Shown piece by piece: positions 67 through 17,973 of a stretch of 22,562 nt of DNA; positions within the stretch are counted from its first letter, which is position 1, and every line of letters begins with the position of its first letter. The position numbers were made by a program, and so were the translations under genes. Source of the stretch: a virus; the IMG/VR virus record IMGVR_UViG_3300050821_016329, positions 1-22,562 of that record. One strand, given 5' to 3'. Under the pieces are notes generated by a model that did no database searches, was not told the origin of the DNA, and saw nothing but the letters and a program-made list of their open reading frames with translations.

Positions 67-239
67 TCAGTAGATGTCCGTCTGCGCGGCAGCCATGGCA
101 GCTTCGACTTCCGGGTCGATGTCGACCGTATCGGCGGCTTCACCAGCTTTTGCCTCCTTCTTCTCCTGGACGGTGAACTCTAATGCTCTGACGATCTCGG
201 AGAAGTTCTCGGGCGTCAGCTCGAACTTGGTAAGCTTTT
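67..239 (-). other. -1-frame C-terminal extension of the ATPase (frameshift)
   Basis: Starting in the A5 run (T5 at 236-240 on the plus strand), the -1 frame encodes about 56 residues: KLTKFELTPENFSEIVRALE, then a Lys/Glu/Ala-rich tail to TGA at 69-67. One extra A in the run would join it to the ATPase as VIKKLTKFELTPE. It has no start codon of its own. The next gene starts 5 bp after its stop, which suggests the long form is the ancestral end. It is either a homopolymer indel (real or assembly) or -1 slippage at A AAA AGC. That is not a classical X XXY YYZ heptamer, so an indel is slightly favoured. Confidence 0.6.
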
Positions 240-1025
240 TATTACCGTCTTTGCTTCGTCAGGCGTCTTGGGCGAATGACCGAGCATCTTGAGGAGCCGG
301 AAGATCTTGATCTTATTCTCCTCGGTCTCCCGATCGACGCCGCCATCGTTCCAGGCGAGGAGCTCTTCTCCGATCTTTGTGGAGAGCTTGAACGGGTCCT
401 CATCAATGAAGAGTTTGGTGCGGTCTTTGGATGCGATGGCCATGTGGCTGTCGCGGTCGATGTTGAAGGCGACGGTGAGCTCGTATTCGAAGCCTTCACG
501 CTGAATGTCTTTCATGCCGATCTTCTTCACCTTGCCGCCTTCCTGGACGGTTTCGGTCTTGCTGCGTGCTGCCGTGATGACGTGGCATTTGGAGGAGACA
601 ATGGCTTCGATGAAGCGTTGGTGGCGAGGGGTGGTCTCGCTCCATGCGCTCCAGGTGTTGCCTTTAAACTTCGTCTTGGCGATCATGTCATTGATCTCGA
701 GACAACCGCCTTTGCCGTCCCACTCGTGGGTGACGGAATCTATGATGATGGCATCCATCCCGGCATCTTCGCCGGCTTTGATCGCTTCGATGTAGCGCTC
801 TGGGCTATACGGCGCCTGGAGCGTGATGACGTTGTAATCGCCCAGATCCGAGTAGAGCTCGCCGGAACCGTTCTCGGTATCGATGAGCAGTATCTTCTCC
901 CAACTCGTGGAGAGTCCGCGAGCGATGAGAAGCGCGGAGTACGTCTTACCGGAACCGGATGGTCCGGAGAGGCCGACGCGCAGCTTCGCCTTCGCGCGTT
1001 GGGCTTTCCTGATTTCTAAACTCAT
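216..1025 (-). CDS. RecA/Sak4-like AAA ATPase (phage recombination/single-strand annealing type)
   Basis: This 269-aa protein is a phage P-loop ATPase of the AAA_24/Sak4-like class, which acts in phage DNA recombination, probably with a single-stranded-DNA-binding protein. Walker A is GPSGSGKT at residues 21-28. An acidic DTENGSG follows near 49, a Walker B-like strand (AIIIDSVTHEW) near 92-102, and a sensor-type strand (HVITAARSK) near 148-156. It is the third ORF of the operon starting at P1, after an 18-aa and a 69-aa ORF, and ATG is preceded by T. The reading frame ends at TGA 218-216, but the -1 frame continues cleanly from the A5 run at 240-236 to a stop at 69-67, so the natural product may be about 50 residues longer. 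The P-loop ATPase call is solid; the exact pathway is family inference. Confidence 0.85.
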   Translation of the reverse strand: MSLEIRKAQRAKAKLRVGLSGPSGSGKTYSALLIARGLSTSWEKILLIDTENGSGELYSDLGDYNVITLQAPYSPERYIEAIKAGEDAGMDAIIIDSVTHEWDGKGGCLEINDMIAKTKFKGNTWSAWSETTPRHQRFIEAIVSSKCHVITAARSKTETVQEGGKVKKIGMKDIQREGFEYELTVAFNIDRDSHMAIASKDRTKLFIDEDPFKLSTKIGEELLAWNDGGVDRETEENKIKIFRLLKMLGHSPKTPDEAKTVIKSLPSSS

Positions 1026-1062: not shown

Positions 1063-1272
1063 TTACGCGGCGAGTACGGGCACTTTCACTACTGGAGTGA
1101 GCGTCGTGTGCGGGGTTGGTCCATTCACTCCACCGTAGCGATGGAATTGGAGCAACGCCGCGAGAATCTGCGTGGTCTGGATGGGTACCCAGTTGCAGAA
1201 GACTTCGTTATGGACATGCCCGCGGAGTTCTTCGGTGATCTCCTCCCGGCTCATGTTTTCGATCTGAGGCAT
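1063..1272 (-). CDS. small hypothetical early protein (69 aa)
   Basis: This 69-aa protein starts MPQIENMSREEITEELRGHV and includes VFCNWVPIQTTQILAALLQFHRYGG. It has an amphipathic acidic N-terminus and no clear membrane segment or known motif. It starts 2 bp after the stop of the 18-aa ORF and ends 37 bp before the ATPase gene, so it belongs to the P1 operon. It is the only supported minus-strand start in the window with C rather than T before ATG, and it lacks a Shine-Dalgarno sequence, so translation is probably coupled to the ORF before it. Function unknown. Confidence 0.6.
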   Translation of the reverse strand: MPQIENMSREEITEELRGHVHNEVFCNWVPIQTTQILAALLQFHRYGGVNGPTPHTTLTPVVKVPVLAA

Positions 1273-1274
1273 GG

Positions 1275-1331
1275 TTAAAAGCGTTTTTGATTATTACGGC
1301 GCTTGGCGACCGCTACTGCCCGACCTTTCAT
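1275..1331 (-). CDS. 18-aa basic leader ORF at start of P1 operon
   Basis: The ATG at 1331-1329 opens 18 codons encoding a Lys/Arg-rich peptide (MKGRAVAVAKRRNNQKRF), stopping 2 bp before the next gene. The ATG lies 8 nt downstream of the P1 -10 (TATACT), so the message would start at or just before it and be leaderless. P2 and P3 have the same geometry, and T precedes the ATG. It could be a real micro-protein, a leader peptide needed for coupled translation of the 69-aa gene, or chance. Its position is better evidence than its sequence. Confidence 0.45.
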   Translation of the reverse strand: MKGRAVAVAKRRNNQKRF

Positions 1332-1339
1332 ATGACATC

Positions 1340-1362
1340 AGTATACATGTTCGTAGCGAACA
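1340..1362 (-). promoter_or_regulatory. P1: leaderless early promoter with palindromic operator
   Basis: The minus strand has -10 TATACT at 1345-1340, with the perfect inverted repeat TGTTCG-N3-CGAACA (1348-1362) 2 nt upstream. No good -35 lies at 16-18 nt, so it may need an activator or be intrinsically weak. The first ATG is 8 nt downstream of the -10. A repressor bound here would block polymerase. P2 and P3 carry the same site. Confidence 0.7.
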
Positions 1363-1836: not shown

Positions 1837-1864
1837 AGTGTAGCAAGTCCGCTACGAACAGCAA
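1837..1864 (-). promoter_or_regulatory. P2: leaderless promoter of the HTH gene, with operator
   Basis: The minus strand has -35 TTGCTG (1864-1859), a 16-nt spacer, then -10 TACACT (1842-1837), ending 6 nt before the ATG at 1830. The operator TGTTCGTAGCGGACT (1860-1846) overlaps the -35 and fills most of the spacer. It differs from the perfect P1 palindrome by two bases in one arm, one of them in the 11-bp core. Confidence 0.72.
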
Positions 1865-4252: not shown

Positions 4253-5140
4253 ATGACCCAAGACATTCGCTTTGCGCTGACGTTTTCAGGTGCGCAAGCA
4301 AGTAGCAATTACATTGATTTTTATGATGTTGCGGACGCGCTCACTGGTTTTCAGCGGTCGTTAGCGCTTACGACACATCTGGTACTCAACGGAGAGATCA
4401 TAGTGCAGGCCCCGGCATTGAAGGGGGCAAAAATTCTCTTGCGGGCGCCTGAGCAGGGAAGCTGGAAAGCGCTCGCGATTGTCTCGGCAATTGCAACGGG
4501 CGCTTATCATATAGGGACGGCTCCTAAAGACACAATAATCGGCAACTTGGTTATTTCCGCATACGACTACGTAATCTCTGAAAGCCTCGGTTTTCATATC
4601 GACTTTGACAAAACTCTAGGACAGCAATACGAGGAATTGCAGAAAAGTCGTAGAAAGAAGGTGCCGGTACCCGCTGCCTCGCAGTCGCAGATGGATTCAT
4701 TAATTGAAAAATGTGAGCCATCGATTCGAGAGATGCATCGACCAATATACGCCTCTAGATCAGCTACTGAAGCAATAGTCGAGTACAAGTTCAGGAAGGA
4801 GAAGCGTACATCTCAATCCCTCACAATCGAGACATTCGGGTATATTGACGTTACTAAATTGGATGACGTCCCGATCGAGGTAGTAGGGAGAGTTAGTAGC
4901 TATAACATTAATACTTTTAAAGGCCGTATTTTCACTCAAACGGAAAGTAGGCCTGTGCCCTTTGTGCTGCATGAATCCGCTAGGTCAAATGAGAACATCG
5001 GTCGGATTACGAGAAGTTTGGACTCGAATGCTATGCAGCGCCTGGATGGATTTGCAGATGTGAGAATCGCAGCCCTCCGAAATACAAGTGTCAACGGTCG
5101 GCTCAAGAATTTCGTCGTTCTCGAGGTATCGGCCATCTAA
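4253..5140 (+). CDS. DUF7946/DUF7947-like protein of unknown function, plus strand
   Basis: This 295-aa protein resembles a family I know from many bacterial genomes (DUF7946/DUF7947-type). Diagnostic stretches are FYDVADALTGFQRSLALTTH and LVLNGEIIVQAPALKGAKI (about 23-62), GTAPKDT (88-94), SAYDYVISESLGFHIDFDKT (102-121), IEKCEPSIREMHRPI (151-165) and VVGRVSSYNINTFKGRIF (210-227). The function is not established. A G-rich sequence (GGGGG) lies about 5 nt before ATG, unlike the Shine-Dalgarno-less minus-strand genes. The upstream region is AT-rich. It splits the lysis genes and faces against the flow of the operon, so it is probably a moron or cargo gene from a bacterial chromosome. A role in phage exclusion is possible but unsupported. 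Confidence 0.65.
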   Translation: MTQDIRFALTFSGAQASSNYIDFYDVADALTGFQRSLALTTHLVLNGEIIVQAPALKGAKILLRAPEQGSWKALAIVSAIATGAYHIGTAPKDTIIGNLVISAYDYVISESLGFHIDFDKTLGQQYEELQKSRRKKVPVPAASQSQMDSLIEKCEPSIREMHRPIYASRSATEAIVEYKFRKEKRTSQSLTIETFGYIDVTKLDDVPIEVVGRVSSYNINTFKGRIFTQTESRPVPFVLHESARSNENIGRITRSLDSNAMQRLDGFADVRIAALRNTSVNGRLKNFVVLEVSAI

Positions 5141-10459: not shown

Positions 10460-11359
10460 TCAAGACATGATCGTGGTAATGCGGGCCTGGCCTTTGGCAC
10501 CGGCGCCTCCTGCATTCGAGCCAGCACCGCCGCCACCGCCACCGCCTCCAGGGACGCTGCCGGCGCTTCCCGTGCCCGCGATACTTCCCGCGCCTCCAGT
10601 GCCGCCGTAGTTCGTGGTGCTTGTGCCGCCTGAGCCGGCCGCGGCGAAGTTGCCGCCACCGCCACCGCCGCCTCCGCCAGCAAAAAGAGAATTGCCGCCA
10701 TTCTGGCCGCCAATAGAACCGGAGCCGTCACCTCCGCAACCGCCGCCTCCACCGCCATATGCGGCTACGCCGCCTGGGCCGCCAAATGTTCCGGCGTTTG
10801 TCCCGCCACCTCCAGCACCGCCGAAGTTGGCCTCGCCGCCCGTAGCACCGCTACCAGTAGCTCCTGAACCACCAGCGGGAGCGCCACCATTGCCACCTGT
10901 AACTGTCGAAGCAGTCGAGCCCGCGCCGAGAACTCCGCCGCCACCGCCACCTGCACCACCTGATGTGCCTGCAACAGCTCCGGCACCGCCGCCACCGCCA
11001 AAGGCAGTGAGTATTGAGCCGAATGTGGTGTTACCACCTACGCCGCCATTAGAGCCTGTGGCACCTGCTGTGCCGCCGTTATTGATTGTTACGGAGATAG
11101 TCGCGGCGAGATCGCTGGCGCGGAATATAGCGCGTATATATGCGCCACCGCCGCCACCACCTCCGCCGCGGCTGGTCGCGCCGCCACCACCACCGCCGCC
11201 TGCGCCCCAAAGCTCGACGATGACGATAGCATTGGATGTGATAGCGGAAGGTTTGGTCCAGGTGCCGCTGCTAGTAAAATTCTGGACGTCGGCAGGTCGC
11301 GTCGAAGCGTTGAGGTCAGCGGCGTTGAGTTGGTCTCCAGCAGACCAAGGATAACCCAT
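10460..11359 (-). CDS. glycine-rich tail adhesin
   Basis: This 299-aa protein starts MGYPWSAGDQLNAADLNA, a typical phage tail opening, followed by a small strand-rich part (FTSSGTWTKP ... IVIVELWGAG). From about residue 53 on it is mostly Gly runs separated by short strands. This matches the phage Gly-rich tail domain seen in tip adhesins, where Gly runs can form polyglycine-II helices and loops contact the receptor. It starts 3 bp after the previous stop and ends 2 bp before the fibre ATG, with T before ATG. The GCC/GCN-rich plus strand gives a long proline-rich antisense frame that is not a gene. Confidence 0.75.
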   Translation of the reverse strand: MGYPWSAGDQLNAADLNASTRPADVQNFTSSGTWTKPSAITSNAIVIVELWGAGGGGGGGATSRGGGGGGGGAYIRAIFRASDLAATISVTINNGGTAGATGSNGGVGGNTTFGSILTAFGGGGGAGAVAGTSGGAGGGGGGVLGAGSTASTVTGGNGGAPAGGSGATGSGATGGEANFGGAGGGGTNAGTFGGPGGVAAYGGGGGGCGGDGSGSIGGQNGGNSLFAGGGGGGGGGNFAAAGSGGTSTTNYGGTGGAGSIAGTGSAGSVPGGGGGGGGAGSNAGGAGAKGQARITTIMS

Positions 11360-11963: not shown

Positions 11964-13472
11964 CTAGTAAATATCGGCGGGTGTTCTGTCCACGTTGATA
12001 ACTCGTTTGGTATCGGAGACGCTCGAGGGCGGGTATGGTCCGAGCACCCATATAGGGCTTACGCCAGCGCCGAGAGGGTCCTTCGCGATATTGGTCTCGG
12101 TGATCGTGACGGTCGCAGCATCGGTATGGTCGGGGGCGGTTCTCTCTGAGATGCTCTCGGTAATGGTTACCGTCGCCAAGTCGACCTTGATGATCTCGCT
12201 CACCTCGTTGGGGTCTATCGGCAGTGCGGCTGGCGTGAGGAGCGATTGCAGTATCTCGGTGAGCGTGAAGGTCTTTACGGTGACGAGTTCGACCGTATAG
12301 ATAAATGTATCGGGTGTACGCGGCGCAAAGGTGACAGCGCGGATTATGTAATCAGTATTCACGCCGCGGCGCGCGCTATTGATGTTGATGGTCTGCCCGG
12401 TACGCAGTCCCGCGACGTAGGTGTCGAACTGGCCGCCCTGGAGTGGGTCTTTATAGGCGGTGAGCTCTGCGACGGCGCGCTGACGGGCGACGTTCAAATC
12501 CGTGATGCTGCTATCCTCGATGAGCTTTTCACGGACGCCGTAGCTGGTGATGCTCGGACTATCTGAGGCAATAGCGAGTACCGGAATGAGCGGCGTGCCG
12601 CTGAATGCGATGGCATCTCCATCATTGAGTGCGGAATTGACCTGTATGGATTGGTCGGCATCGCGATAGAGCACGTCTTTCGTAGCGAAAGTGTCCTGGC
12701 CGTAGATGCCGACGCTCTTGCTGACGCTATTTATGGCGATCGTGAGCGTCGTGACGTCGAACTTGTAAGGAAGTACCCAGCTTTTGGTTACGGAGCCCTT
12801 GACGGTAATGGTGTCGCTGAAGGTGCTGCCCTGGTATGTGCCGCCGCGGACTTTCACCTGATTGGCGAGCTGCGTGCCGTCCATCGTCGTCTGAAGACTG
12901 TTGTTGACGTAGTTGCCGCTCGTGTCGGTGAGATTGAACGGCGATAGTTCGGTGTATTTGGGGAAGAAATGAATGTCTTTATCCGGGTCGACGTACCAGT
13001 CATATTGCACCAAGTCGGCGAGCTTCTTTATAGCTTGTGAGATGGGGACCTGATTGAAGACAATGCTGGCGACATTGAATGTGCACGTCGTGTTGATGTC
13101 AGTGAAGCCAGTCGCGAAATTCGCTACGAAGTCGTCGATTATCTGTTTGATGGTCTGGTTCGTGTACGCTTGCGAGACGAGCTCGCTGTCGAGGTCAATA
13201 GAGTAGTCGACGCAACTAAGCTTGTATATGATGCCGTCCTTCGGATTGAAACTATCTTGCTCGATGGTGGCAATCCTGCCACCGAATATCTTAGTGCTGC
13301 CGTCTTGTATGAGCACTGTGTCGAGCACGGCCGGCGTGTAGCTCTTCGCGCCGTACTTTTTATAGTAGAGGGTCGCGGTGTCGCGCTGTGCTCCGATTAT
13401 TTGCTGCACCTGGAAGCCGTTCTGGTCGATGTCGCTGGTGTGGTCAGAGCCTCCGAGCGTTACCGTGATCAT
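11964..13472 (-). CDS. tail hub / tail-associated baseplate protein (Tal/gp44-like)
   Basis: This 502-aa protein starts MITVTLGGSDHTSDID and shows the hub-type layout. An N-terminal barrel part includes DTVLIQDGSTKIFGGRIATI. It is followed by TIKQIIDDFVANFATGF and SQAIKKLADLVQYDWYVDPD (about 157-176), a hallmark of tail-hub proteins, then a receptor-tip-like half. The C-terminus repeats ATVTITES/ETN. The ATG overlaps the tape-measure TGA (ATGA, 13472-13469), and this position fits a hub that closes the tail tube. Two exact operator cores, 12679-12689 and 13120-13130, lie inside the gene. No lysozyme or peptidase motif is obvious, so a structural role is most likely. Confidence 0.75.
   Translation of the reverse strand: MITVTLGGSDHTSDIDQNGFQVQQIIGAQRDTATLYYKKYGAKSYTPAVLDTVLIQDGSTKIFGGRIATIEQDSFNPKDGIIYKLSCVDYSIDLDSELVSQAYTNQTIKQIIDDFVANFATGFTDINTTCTFNVASIVFNQVPISQAIKKLADLVQYDWYVDPDKDIHFFPKYTELSPFNLTDTSGNYVNNSLQTTMDGTQLANQVKVRGGTYQGSTFSDTITVKGSVTKSWVLPYKFDVTTLTIAINSVSKSVGIYGQDTFATKDVLYRDADQSIQVNSALNDGDAIAFSGTPLIPVLAIASDSPSITSYGVREKLIEDSSITDLNVARQRAVAELTAYKDPLQGGQFDTYVAGLRTGQTININSARRGVNTDYIIRAVTFAPRTPDTFIYTVELVTVKTFTLTEILQSLLTPAALPIDPNEVSEIIKVDLATVTITESISERTAPDHTDAATVTITETNIAKDPLGAGVSPIWVLGPYPPSSVSDTKRVINVDRTPADIY
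12679..12689. promoter_or_regulatory. intragenic operator core (site 4)
   Basis: TTCGTAGCGAA, exactly the 11-bp core of the P1 operator, with palindromic flanks CTT...AAG. It lies in the tail hub gene with no -10 beside it. Confidence 0.5.
13120..13130. promoter_or_regulatory. intragenic operator core (site 5)
   Basis: TTCGCTACGAA, the reverse-oriented exact core, within the tail hub gene. No promoter hexamer is adjacent. Confidence 0.45.
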
Positions 13473-15112: not shown

Positions 15113-15636
15113 CTATTGTACCTTACGGTCGGCATGGGTTGCTTCAGCTCGCATTAGCTCCATGAGGATAAATAGAAATTCGTGAGGCTGCGCCATGTAT
15201 TCCTCGTATGTCCAAGACATCTCGCGGCAGATGAGCGCGATGCGTTGGATGGGCCATTCGAGTGCGCCGATTGTGAAGTAGCGTTTCCACGCCGCCCTTA
15301 CTTCGTCGGCTTCGTAGGGTTTTGGATTTTGTTCACCTCTTCGACGACTGCATCGTACTCGCTGGATGGTAGGTCGAGGAGTTTGTCGACGGGGTCTTTG
15401 GTCTCTCCATCGATCGAGACTACGAGATAGGAAAGTGCTCGCTTCTCTTGCTCTAAGATAAAGGAGCCGGACATTCCTTCGACGGCAATCTTGCCGGACT
15501 GAGCGTCCTGCATGTCTGCTTTAAGAGCAGAGAACATGAGCGACTTTATTTCGTTTGCCTCACGTCCGGTGAGATATGTGCGAAGTACGATCTTGCGGCC
15601 TGCGGGTGTGGTTATTTCTTTGGTCTCGCGTTCCAT
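15113..15636 (-). CDS. tail assembly chaperone frameshift product (gpGT-like, -1 fusion)
   Basis: The chaperone frame contains the slippery heptamer A AAC CCT (15322-15316), a perfect X XXY YYZ pattern. A -1 slip there replaces the last five residues with 67 new ones starting YEADEVRAAWKRYFTIGALE and ending before TAG 15115-15113, giving about 174 aa. The extension holds MSWTYEEYMAQPHEFLFILM, typical of gpT-type ends. In lambda-like phages the G and GT proteins coat the tape measure during tail assembly. Chaperone, extension and tape measure are in the conserved order. Y=C heptamers are less common than Y=A, so efficiency may be low. Confidence 0.8.
15298..15636 (-). CDS. tail assembly chaperone (gpG-like, 112 aa)
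   Basis: The unshifted product: MERETKEITTPAGRKIVLRT, YLTGREANEIKSLMFSALKA, then a charged helical C-terminus ending NKIQNPTKPTK. The opening 'I..PAGRKIVLRTYLTGREANEI' is the usual start of tail assembly chaperones. It begins 1 bp after the stop of the 48-aa membrane protein, with T before ATG, and is followed by the frameshift extension and the tape measure. It probably wraps the tape measure so that tube protein can polymerise around it. Confidence 0.85.
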   Translation of the reverse strand: MERETKEITTPAGRKIVLRTYLTGREANEIKSLMFSALKADMQDAQSGKIAVEGMSGSFILEQEKRALSYLVVSIDGETKDPVDKLLDLPSSEYDAVVEEVNKIQNPTKPTK

Positions 15637-15637
15637 A

Positions 15638-15784
15638 CTAAATGATTTTGTCGAGCTTGGTTTGTAAGTCGACCTCTAGTTGTCGCCTGCGTTTTTGTTC
15701 CGCAATACGCCCGGCTGCGGCCAGTGCGACAACGAAAGCAACTATCCAAAATAATGGTCCCGCAGTGGCGAGTTCATGTAGCAT
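15638..15784 (-). CDS. 48-aa membrane protein under its own operator-controlled promoter
   Basis: One hydrophobic helix (PLFWIVAFVVALAAAG, about 10-25) is followed by a basic stretch EQKRRRQ and a charged amphipathic tail. A longer frame begins with TTG at 15820, but that TTG is the -35 of promoter P3. The ATG at 15784 lies 8 nt below the P3 -10 and has T at -1, so I take it as the start. It ends 1 bp before the chaperone ATG. A membrane protein under a repressor-type promoter inside a tail operon is the pattern of a lysogenic conversion or exclusion gene. That role is inference. Confidence 0.6.
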   Translation of the reverse strand: MLHELATAGPLFWIVAFVVALAAAGRIAEQKRRRQLEVDLQTKLDKII

Positions 15785-15792
15785 ATGCGTGA

Positions 15793-15820
15793 AGTGTACG
15801 TTCGCTACGAATATCGTCAA
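15793..15820 (-). promoter_or_regulatory. P3: leaderless promoter with operator inside the tail operon
   Basis: The minus strand has -35 TTGACG (15820-15815), a 16-nt spacer, then -10 TACACT (15798-15793), 8 nt before the ATG at 15784. The operator TATTCGTAGCGAACG (15813-15799) fills the spacer and ends at the -10. Spacer length and -10 are identical to P2. Confidence 0.75.
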
Positions 15821-16527: not shown

Positions 16528-17736
16528 TCAATAACCGTTCTGTGTATTCGTGAGGGTCGTCTTAAGCATGTAGCTGTCAGAAGTGCTATAGCTGCCTTTG
16601 AATTTGATGGTCTGATATACGAGGTCGCCTACCTTAAACGGACGGCCGAGTTCCGTGATCGTGCACTTCGGAATGTTGAATTGGAGCTCCGGGTTTGTCG
16701 TGCTGCCGATCGTGACATCAGTGTTCTTTAGGTCAATGAGTATCGCCAGCGGATATGGTGCGCCTCCAGTCGATCCGAGGAACTGGTCCTTGAAGTCGCT
16801 GTTGTTCTGCCAGATGCATTCGAGCGTTCCGTCGACGGCGAAGTCCTTATTCAGAAAGTCAGCGGGGCTATTATTGCCCAGCGTATCCTGGTCTTCGACG
16901 TTAGCGTTTATGGTGAGCTTCGCGCTTTTGAGCGGAATGGCGACTGGTGTGAAAGTCTGCGTACCGATGGCGCCGGTCGTTGCCTGGGAAAGGTCGTAGG
17001 CGGTCGCTGACACGATCTTGGCGATAGTGGTGTTCGCCGGAATGTTCGTGCCGGTAACGCCCATGCCGACTTTGAGGTTCGTTTGCGGATTTATGCTGCA
17101 CGCGGTGACGTGCACCGTGCTTGCGGCGGTGCCAGTGGCGGTGAGTGTGCCAGCGAGGCCAGCGGAGTTGAGTGCGAACTTGACTGTTGCGAACTGACAG
17201 ACGAAGCGATTGTCTGCGGTTGTAGCCGGTGTGAATGTGCTTTGCGCAACTCCAGTGAGTGCTTTAATGCTGGCGACAAATTCGACGAACTTCTTGAGCG
17301 CGATGTTTATCTCGAGTTTTTCGACGACGCCATTTGCGTATGAATAGTCCTGACCTGAAAGCGGATCATGTAGGAAAAATGTGAGCGACTGATGCTGAGC
17401 ACTCTCGGCAACATTGAAGATATTGTCGTAGACGATGCTCTCGCCTGAGTGGGTGCTATGCGAAGTTAGCGTGCCGAAGATAGCATAGAGGAATAGACCA
17501 AAGGATTGGTCCATGACGTTGCCCGTGATGGTACCCTGCGCCCATCGCTTCGTATTGGTGAGGCCTACATTGTCCTCAATGACACCGTACGCCTGTTCGT
17601 CGGTAGCGAACTCTTTCTTCTCGTCGAGTGATAGATCCATCCACGGGTTCCAGAACGCTGCGGACGATATCGCGGTTCCGCGAGTGGTTTCTTTTGCTAC
17701 GCCTATCTGAATTAGTCGCCCAATGCCTTTGGCCAT
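16528..17736 (-). CDS. major tail tube protein
   Basis: A 402-aa protein beginning MAKGIGRLIQIGVAKETTRG, the familiar opening of siphovirus tube subunits, with AAFWNPWMDLSLDEKKEFAT next. Tube subunits are usually smaller. Here residues about 191-266 look like an inserted beta domain (TGTAASTVHV ... VGMGVTGTNIPANTTIAKI ... QATTGAIGTQTFTPV), after which the core resumes with KLTINANVEDQDTLGNNSPA. A similar module is inserted in the head-tail connector. The gene follows the 66-aa gene by 7 bp, with ATAT before ATG. The product forms the tail tube rings. Confidence 0.85.
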   Translation of the reverse strand: MAKGIGRLIQIGVAKETTRGTAISSAAFWNPWMDLSLDEKKEFATDEQAYGVIEDNVGLTNTKRWAQGTITGNVMDQSFGLFLYAIFGTLTSHSTHSGESIVYDNIFNVAESAQHQSLTFFLHDPLSGQDYSYANGVVEKLEINIALKKFVEFVASIKALTGVAQSTFTPATTADNRFVCQFATVKFALNSAGLAGTLTATGTAASTVHVTACSINPQTNLKVGMGVTGTNIPANTTIAKIVSATAYDLSQATTGAIGTQTFTPVAIPLKSAKLTINANVEDQDTLGNNSPADFLNKDFAVDGTLECIWQNNSDFKDQFLGSTGGAPYPLAILIDLKNTDVTIGSTTNPELQFNIPKCTITELGRPFKVGDLVYQTIKFKGSYSTSDSYMLKTTLTNTQNGY

Positions 17737-17944: not shown

Positions 17945-17973
17945 AGACAGATAATAGCAGAGGTTTCGTAGTG

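Follow-up and report, generated by a model that had tools for sequence, protein, structure and literature searches.

A TTCG dyad shared by three apparently leaderless promoters and the hub gene in a probable Patescibacteria phage

The fragment and the repeated core

The sequence analysed, IMG/VR record IMGVR_UViG_3300050821_016329, is a linear fragment of 22,562 bases, here called the window, and all window counts refer to this fragment. Read from right to left, its genes specify the capsid, head-tail connectors, tail proteins, tape measure, hub and tail fibres. At the left end is an AAA ATPase gene of the Sak4-like recombination type (216–1025, minus strand; phrog_1366/phrog_124, PF13479). 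The tail protein or baseplate hub-like gene (11,964–13,472, minus strand) matches phrog_400 (4e-8) and phrog_4930 (7e-4). A DUF7946/DUF7947 protein is encoded at 4253–5140 on the plus strand, opposite to the structural genes. Relatives of the capsid are present in IMG/VR and in Patescibacteria (two named genomes and four of 380 sampled genomes of the phylum), so that the host is probably an ultra-small member of this group. The early region, in which the main repressor would be expected, probably lies mostly outside the fragment.

The 11-bp word TTCGTAGCGAA is found in four exact copies, beginning at 1350 (+), 12,679 (+), 13,120 (-) and 15,801 (-), and a copy with one mismatch, TTCGTAGCGGA, is located at 1848–1858 (-). 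All five had been listed in the initial annotation and were confirmed at their positions. With GC-rich repeats set aside (GCC/CACC repeats clustered around a single tail-fibre-assembly ORF), this is the only 11-mer to occur four times in the window. The annotation had also held that the core should be far rarer by chance, and this agrees with Markov models of order 1–5, which predict 0.00–0.07 copies against the four observed; any 11-mer reaching at least four copies arose in 1–11 of 100 Markov simulations. Approximately 610 kb of sequence from relatives contain no exact core and 30 copies of TTCGNNNCGAA with any centre, a density of roughly one in 20 kb. By themselves the dyad arms are therefore common, and it is the shared TAG/CTA centre which is unusual.

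The three promoter copies and a candidate binder

Three of the copies are intergenic. The arrangement TAYACT-N6-8-ATG occurs exactly three times on the two strands of the whole window, at sites designated P1, P2 and P3, and in each case (3/3) a TTCG-NNN-CGRA dyad is situated 2–5 nt upstream. At P1 the dyad is a perfect 13-bp one, GTTCG-TAG-CGAAC (1349–1361, minus strand), with TATACT at 1345–1340, 8 nt and an ATG at 1331; read leftwards the site is GTTCGCTACGAAC-ATG-TATACT-N8-ATG, without a good -35 box. A possible 18-codon first ORF of this transcript (1275–1331, minus strand) is separated by 2 nt from the ATG at 1272, which opens a 69-aa ORF (1063–1272, minus strand); by eye, this resembles a 45-aa ORF that precedes the AAA gene of phage G012. 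The P2 operator, GTTCGTAGCGGAC on the minus strand (1847–1859), lies between TTGCTG and TACACT (1842–1837), which is followed after 6 nt by an ATG at 1830, the order being TTGCTG-TTCGTAGCGGA-N5-TACACT-N6-ATG. At P3 the operator ATTCGTAGCGAAC (15,800–15,812, minus strand) falls within TTGACG-N16-TACACT (15,820–15,793), 8 nt before the ATG at 15,784, giving TTGACG-ATA-TTCGTAGCGAA-CG-TACACT-N8-ATG. The first gene behind P3 is a 48-codon ORF (15,641–15,784, minus strand) for a probable small membrane protein, and the ORF at 15,298–15,636, the tape measure and the hub follow in that order.

Since the -10 box lies only 6–8 nt before the ATG, the geometry of sigma70 promoters suggests that these transcripts are leaderless. 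The promoter operators have in common a flanking G...C pair outside the core, and the distance from dyad to -10 box varies (2, 4 and 5 nt). Promoter-like sites at 17,956 (TATTAT) and 11,961 (TATAAT) are without a dyad, and hence the dyad is confined to some of the promoters and is no general promoter element. One dyad thus overlaps several promoters, the property that defines a phage operator regulon serving several promoters. Judged from their sequences, the three intergenic copies look like one operator set for three leftward, apparently leaderless promoters. This part of the network postulated in the initial annotation stands; its extension into the hub gene as a stoperator-like network is not supported, there being two sites, in opposite orientations, unconserved and lacking the G...C pair.

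Both P2 and P3 are preceded by secondary structure. A terminator-like hairpin (1876–1904) is situated directly upstream of P2, and a strong GC-rich palindrome around GCATGCATGCGCGCATGC is found at 1995–2032, also upstream; tRNA and Rfam searches at P1–P2 gave no match above threshold. The long hairpin upstream of P3 (15,845–15,935, minus strand; MFE -46.1 kcal/mol, z -4.9) is possibly a terminator or a processing element. It has a counterpart at 12,575–12,668 in the relative L023 (z -5.3), both being located between head and tail genes, and L011 has a similar CCCTA...TAGGG outer stem with a z of only -1.1.

The gene whose ATG follows P2 (1612–1830, minus strand) encodes a 72-aa protein for which no Pfam family and, by sequence searches, no relative was found. 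It had been annotated as HTH-like, and structure prediction agrees: a confident single-sequence AlphaFold2 model (pLDDT 85.7) has four helices in a helix-turn-helix-like arrangement, and HTH DNA-binding proteins (TrpR, GerE, Lrp-type and others) make up most of its best PDB matches, all with E >0.1 and none better than E 0.6. It is a candidate for the operator binder.

Related phages

IMG/VR was queried with the AAA, DUF7946 and HTH proteins and no relatives were found, so that the P1/P2 region could be compared directly only as P1 versus G012. At the place of P3, the layout TTGNNN / ~16–18 nt / -10 / N8-9 / ATG is present in eleven phages, namely that of the window and ten relatives (L008, L011, L012, L015, L021, L023, L024, L055, L057 and L062), where it sits upstream of the o15298 homologue with mostly unrelated spacers. 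At the sequence level, P3 is thus a conserved promoter-like place. The leaderless-type layout is kept at the head/tail boundary of this phage group while the small gene downstream varies.

The closest relative, L023, carries TTGACGgtaTTCGctgCGAAcgTAAAAT at this place, in which the TTCG...CGAA arms are retained and the centre is changed from TAG to CTG. Because the two phages are closely related (74–86% amino acid identity in several genes), this conservation is mild evidence only. L023 was also the sole true match when IMG/VR was scanned for the full promoter with its dyad; matches in L063 and L064, neither of which is homologous to the window genes, were rejected. For L006, L015, L019, L021 and L011, the word in the P3 spacer has no second exact occurrence in the phage's own record. 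L057 has at its P3 equivalent (~4640–4665) a different dyad, GCTGAAA...TTTTCAGC, spanning the -10 box and the start codon.

Phage G012 (L048) possesses a dyad of its own, ATGCSGACGCGTSGGCAT, which occurs as such or as a close variant at 10,999, 11,040, 14,326 and 15,938. These sites precede a divergently oriented gene of 58 aa, the counterpart of the small-ORF/AAA operon at P1, and apparently two further starts. An automatic ORF mask labelled three of these positions as coding, chance long ORFs being frequent in this GC-rich genome; on reading, those at 10,999 and 11,040 are flanked by the ATG of the 58-aa gene on one side and by the following start on the other. One more match, at 23,271, has three mismatches, and the G012 hub gene (L048 3494–4903) contains no copy. 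The dyads adjoin small HTH-like and basic genes. They apparently form a phage-specific operator set, like that of the window in being repeated near several transcript starts, the AAA operon included, but unlike it in being an 18-bp dyad of other sequence whose close copies are confined to the early region. They support a promoter operator set and offer no parallel for the hub sites. Two other apparent cases were rejected: in G010 an enrichment of TTCGNNNCGAA (nine sites) is mostly in coding sequence with mixed centres and was not accepted as an own-dyad network, and the apparent GTTCG dyads of G007 are likewise located in coding sequence.

The hub gene copies and the operator model

The two remaining copies are in the reading frame of the hub gene, have no promoter signals and are in opposite orientations. 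The one at 13,120–13,130 (minus strand) is made up of the codons TTC GTA GCG AA(T), specifying F-V-A-N from 13,130, and that at 12,679–12,689 (plus strand) corresponds to the minus-strand codons TTC GCT ACG AA(A), specifying F-A-T-K from 12,689; both are without the outer G/C. Along the leftward transcript the centre reads TAG at P2, P3 and 13,120, and CTA at P1 and 12,679. Their separation of 441 bp (~42 helical turns) carries no evidential weight in this analysis.

We think it probable that these copies match the core by chance, through the peptides F-V-A-N and F-A-T-K, and that the promoter sites alone function. With typical codons each core arises, given its peptide, with a probability of 0.03–0.04. 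With a matrix derived only from the promoter sites, all three of which score 17.3–19.2, the hub copies rank 4th and 6th (13.4 and 11.5), among background coding sites such as those at 17,599 (13.2) and 4110 (11.3), because the outer G...C is missing; when the arms alone are matched, a dozen sites of the window have two mismatches, and the hub pair is among them. Against chance stand the TAG/CTA centre shared with all three promoter operators and the low probability, only ~0.001, of two exact cores. The codon-choice check proposed in the initial annotation did return a small value, synonymous resampling giving at least two cores in the hub gene with P 0.001–0.003, as did the empirical rate from relatives (P 0.0006) and, at its loosest, a null of up to 0.006; all of these are post hoc, the word having been picked because it is repeated. 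Two exact cores within one gene of the P3 transcript are also what would be said for a stoperator-like role, in which a repressor at the hub sites would block elongation or loop to P3 and so silence the tail operon of a lysogen. We regard this as unlikely in view of the missing outer G...C, the background-level scores, the opposite orientations and the fate of the sites in other phages. Neither dyad is kept in any hub homologue, the more distant ones included, and among other relatives no copies of their own dyads were seen in structural genes. The comparison with homologous hubs that the annotation had called for went against it: at the place of the 12,679 copy the hub of L005 (the best homologue, 74% identical) encodes Q-D-T-F-A-S-K-D with other codons, TTC GCG AGC AAG versus TTC GCT ACG AAA in the window. 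This comparison is imperfect for the following reason: L057, from the same sample and with its hub split at about the same residue, probably represents the remainder of the L005 phage, and since its P3 lacks a TTCG dyad it may use another operator. That intragenic repressor sites which stop or loop the tail transcription of the lysogen arose independently within a tail gene of a Patescibacteria phage, in parallel to the mycobacteriophage stoperators, we consider quite improbable; if the hub sites did bind, they would represent a second origin of stoperator-like silencing. The hub copies are probably incidental, and at most weak auxiliary sites in the P3 transcript.

The dyad might also be bound by a host regulator such as LexA, or by an activator, rather than by the phage HTH protein, which we hold to be rather unlikely. 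LexA is encoded by the Patescibacteria hosts of relatives, but two lexA loci examined contain no TTCGN3CGAA, and GTTCGN3CGAACN4TANNNT is absent from 22 related Patescibacteria genomes, from which the true host may differ; LexA as the binder therefore has no support from either source. Activator-dependent promoters can carry off-consensus -10 boxes, and the TAYACT boxes are off consensus, but the variable register is unfavourable to an activator. The spacing of 2, 4 or 5 nt to the -10 box would agree better with steric repression than with a phased activator.

The explanation which we prefer, with some confidence, is that the dyad serves several promoters as the operator for a small DNA-binding repressor encoded by the phage, for which the 72-aa HTH protein is the most likely candidate, the hub copies probably being incidental. 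At each of three sigma70-type promoters, leftward and leaderless, the operator GTTCG-NNN-CGAAC would fall within the interval from the -35 to the -10 position, where the bound protein would block RNA polymerase sterically. Its targets would be the small ORF and AAA/Sak4-like recombination operon at P1, the HTH gene itself at P2, resulting in autoregulation, and the tail operon at P3, so that recombination and tail genes would be switched together. The arrangement of the sites, and the conserved promoter-like place at P3, can be read directly from the sequences; protein binding, repression rather than activation, and the identity of the binder are inferred.

The logic resembles that of lambda CI/Cro, with one dyad at several promoters, one of them before the gene for a DNA-binding protein, and differs in the single dyad per promoter, the leaderless starts, the tail operon as a target and a binder which is a candidate. 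In Cluster A mycobacteriophages, 20–30 stoperators are distributed genome-wide, oriented with transcription and mostly not at promoters (PMC6550527). The window shares with L5 and its Cluster A relatives a division of repressor-type sites between promoters and the interior of a lytic transcription unit (PMC6550527), but its five near-symmetric sites, in a 22.5-kb fragment too short for their number to be weighed against a genome-wide 20–30, are of mixed orientation. Its TAG and CTA readings are mixed, three of the five sites are directly upstream of TAYACT-ATG, and across related phages only the arms of P3 recur, in L023. In view of this orientation and of the location at promoters, the set is not assigned to the stoperator systems; the stoperator reading is not supported, and we classify the sites as an ordinary operator set serving several promoters.

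For a probable Patescibacteria phage group, an operator, its three target promoters and a candidate repressor are thereby proposed, and the tail operon of the group is seen to be preceded by a leaderless-promoter layout that is conserved. In the paper library searched, no publication dealt with leaderless promoters of Patescibacteria/CPR or of their phages. A further leaderless-type promoter, TATAAT-N8-ATG, is located at the end of the hub gene (11,961–11,945, minus strand), and its counterpart in L005 (~1110–1124) reads TATACT-N7-ATG.
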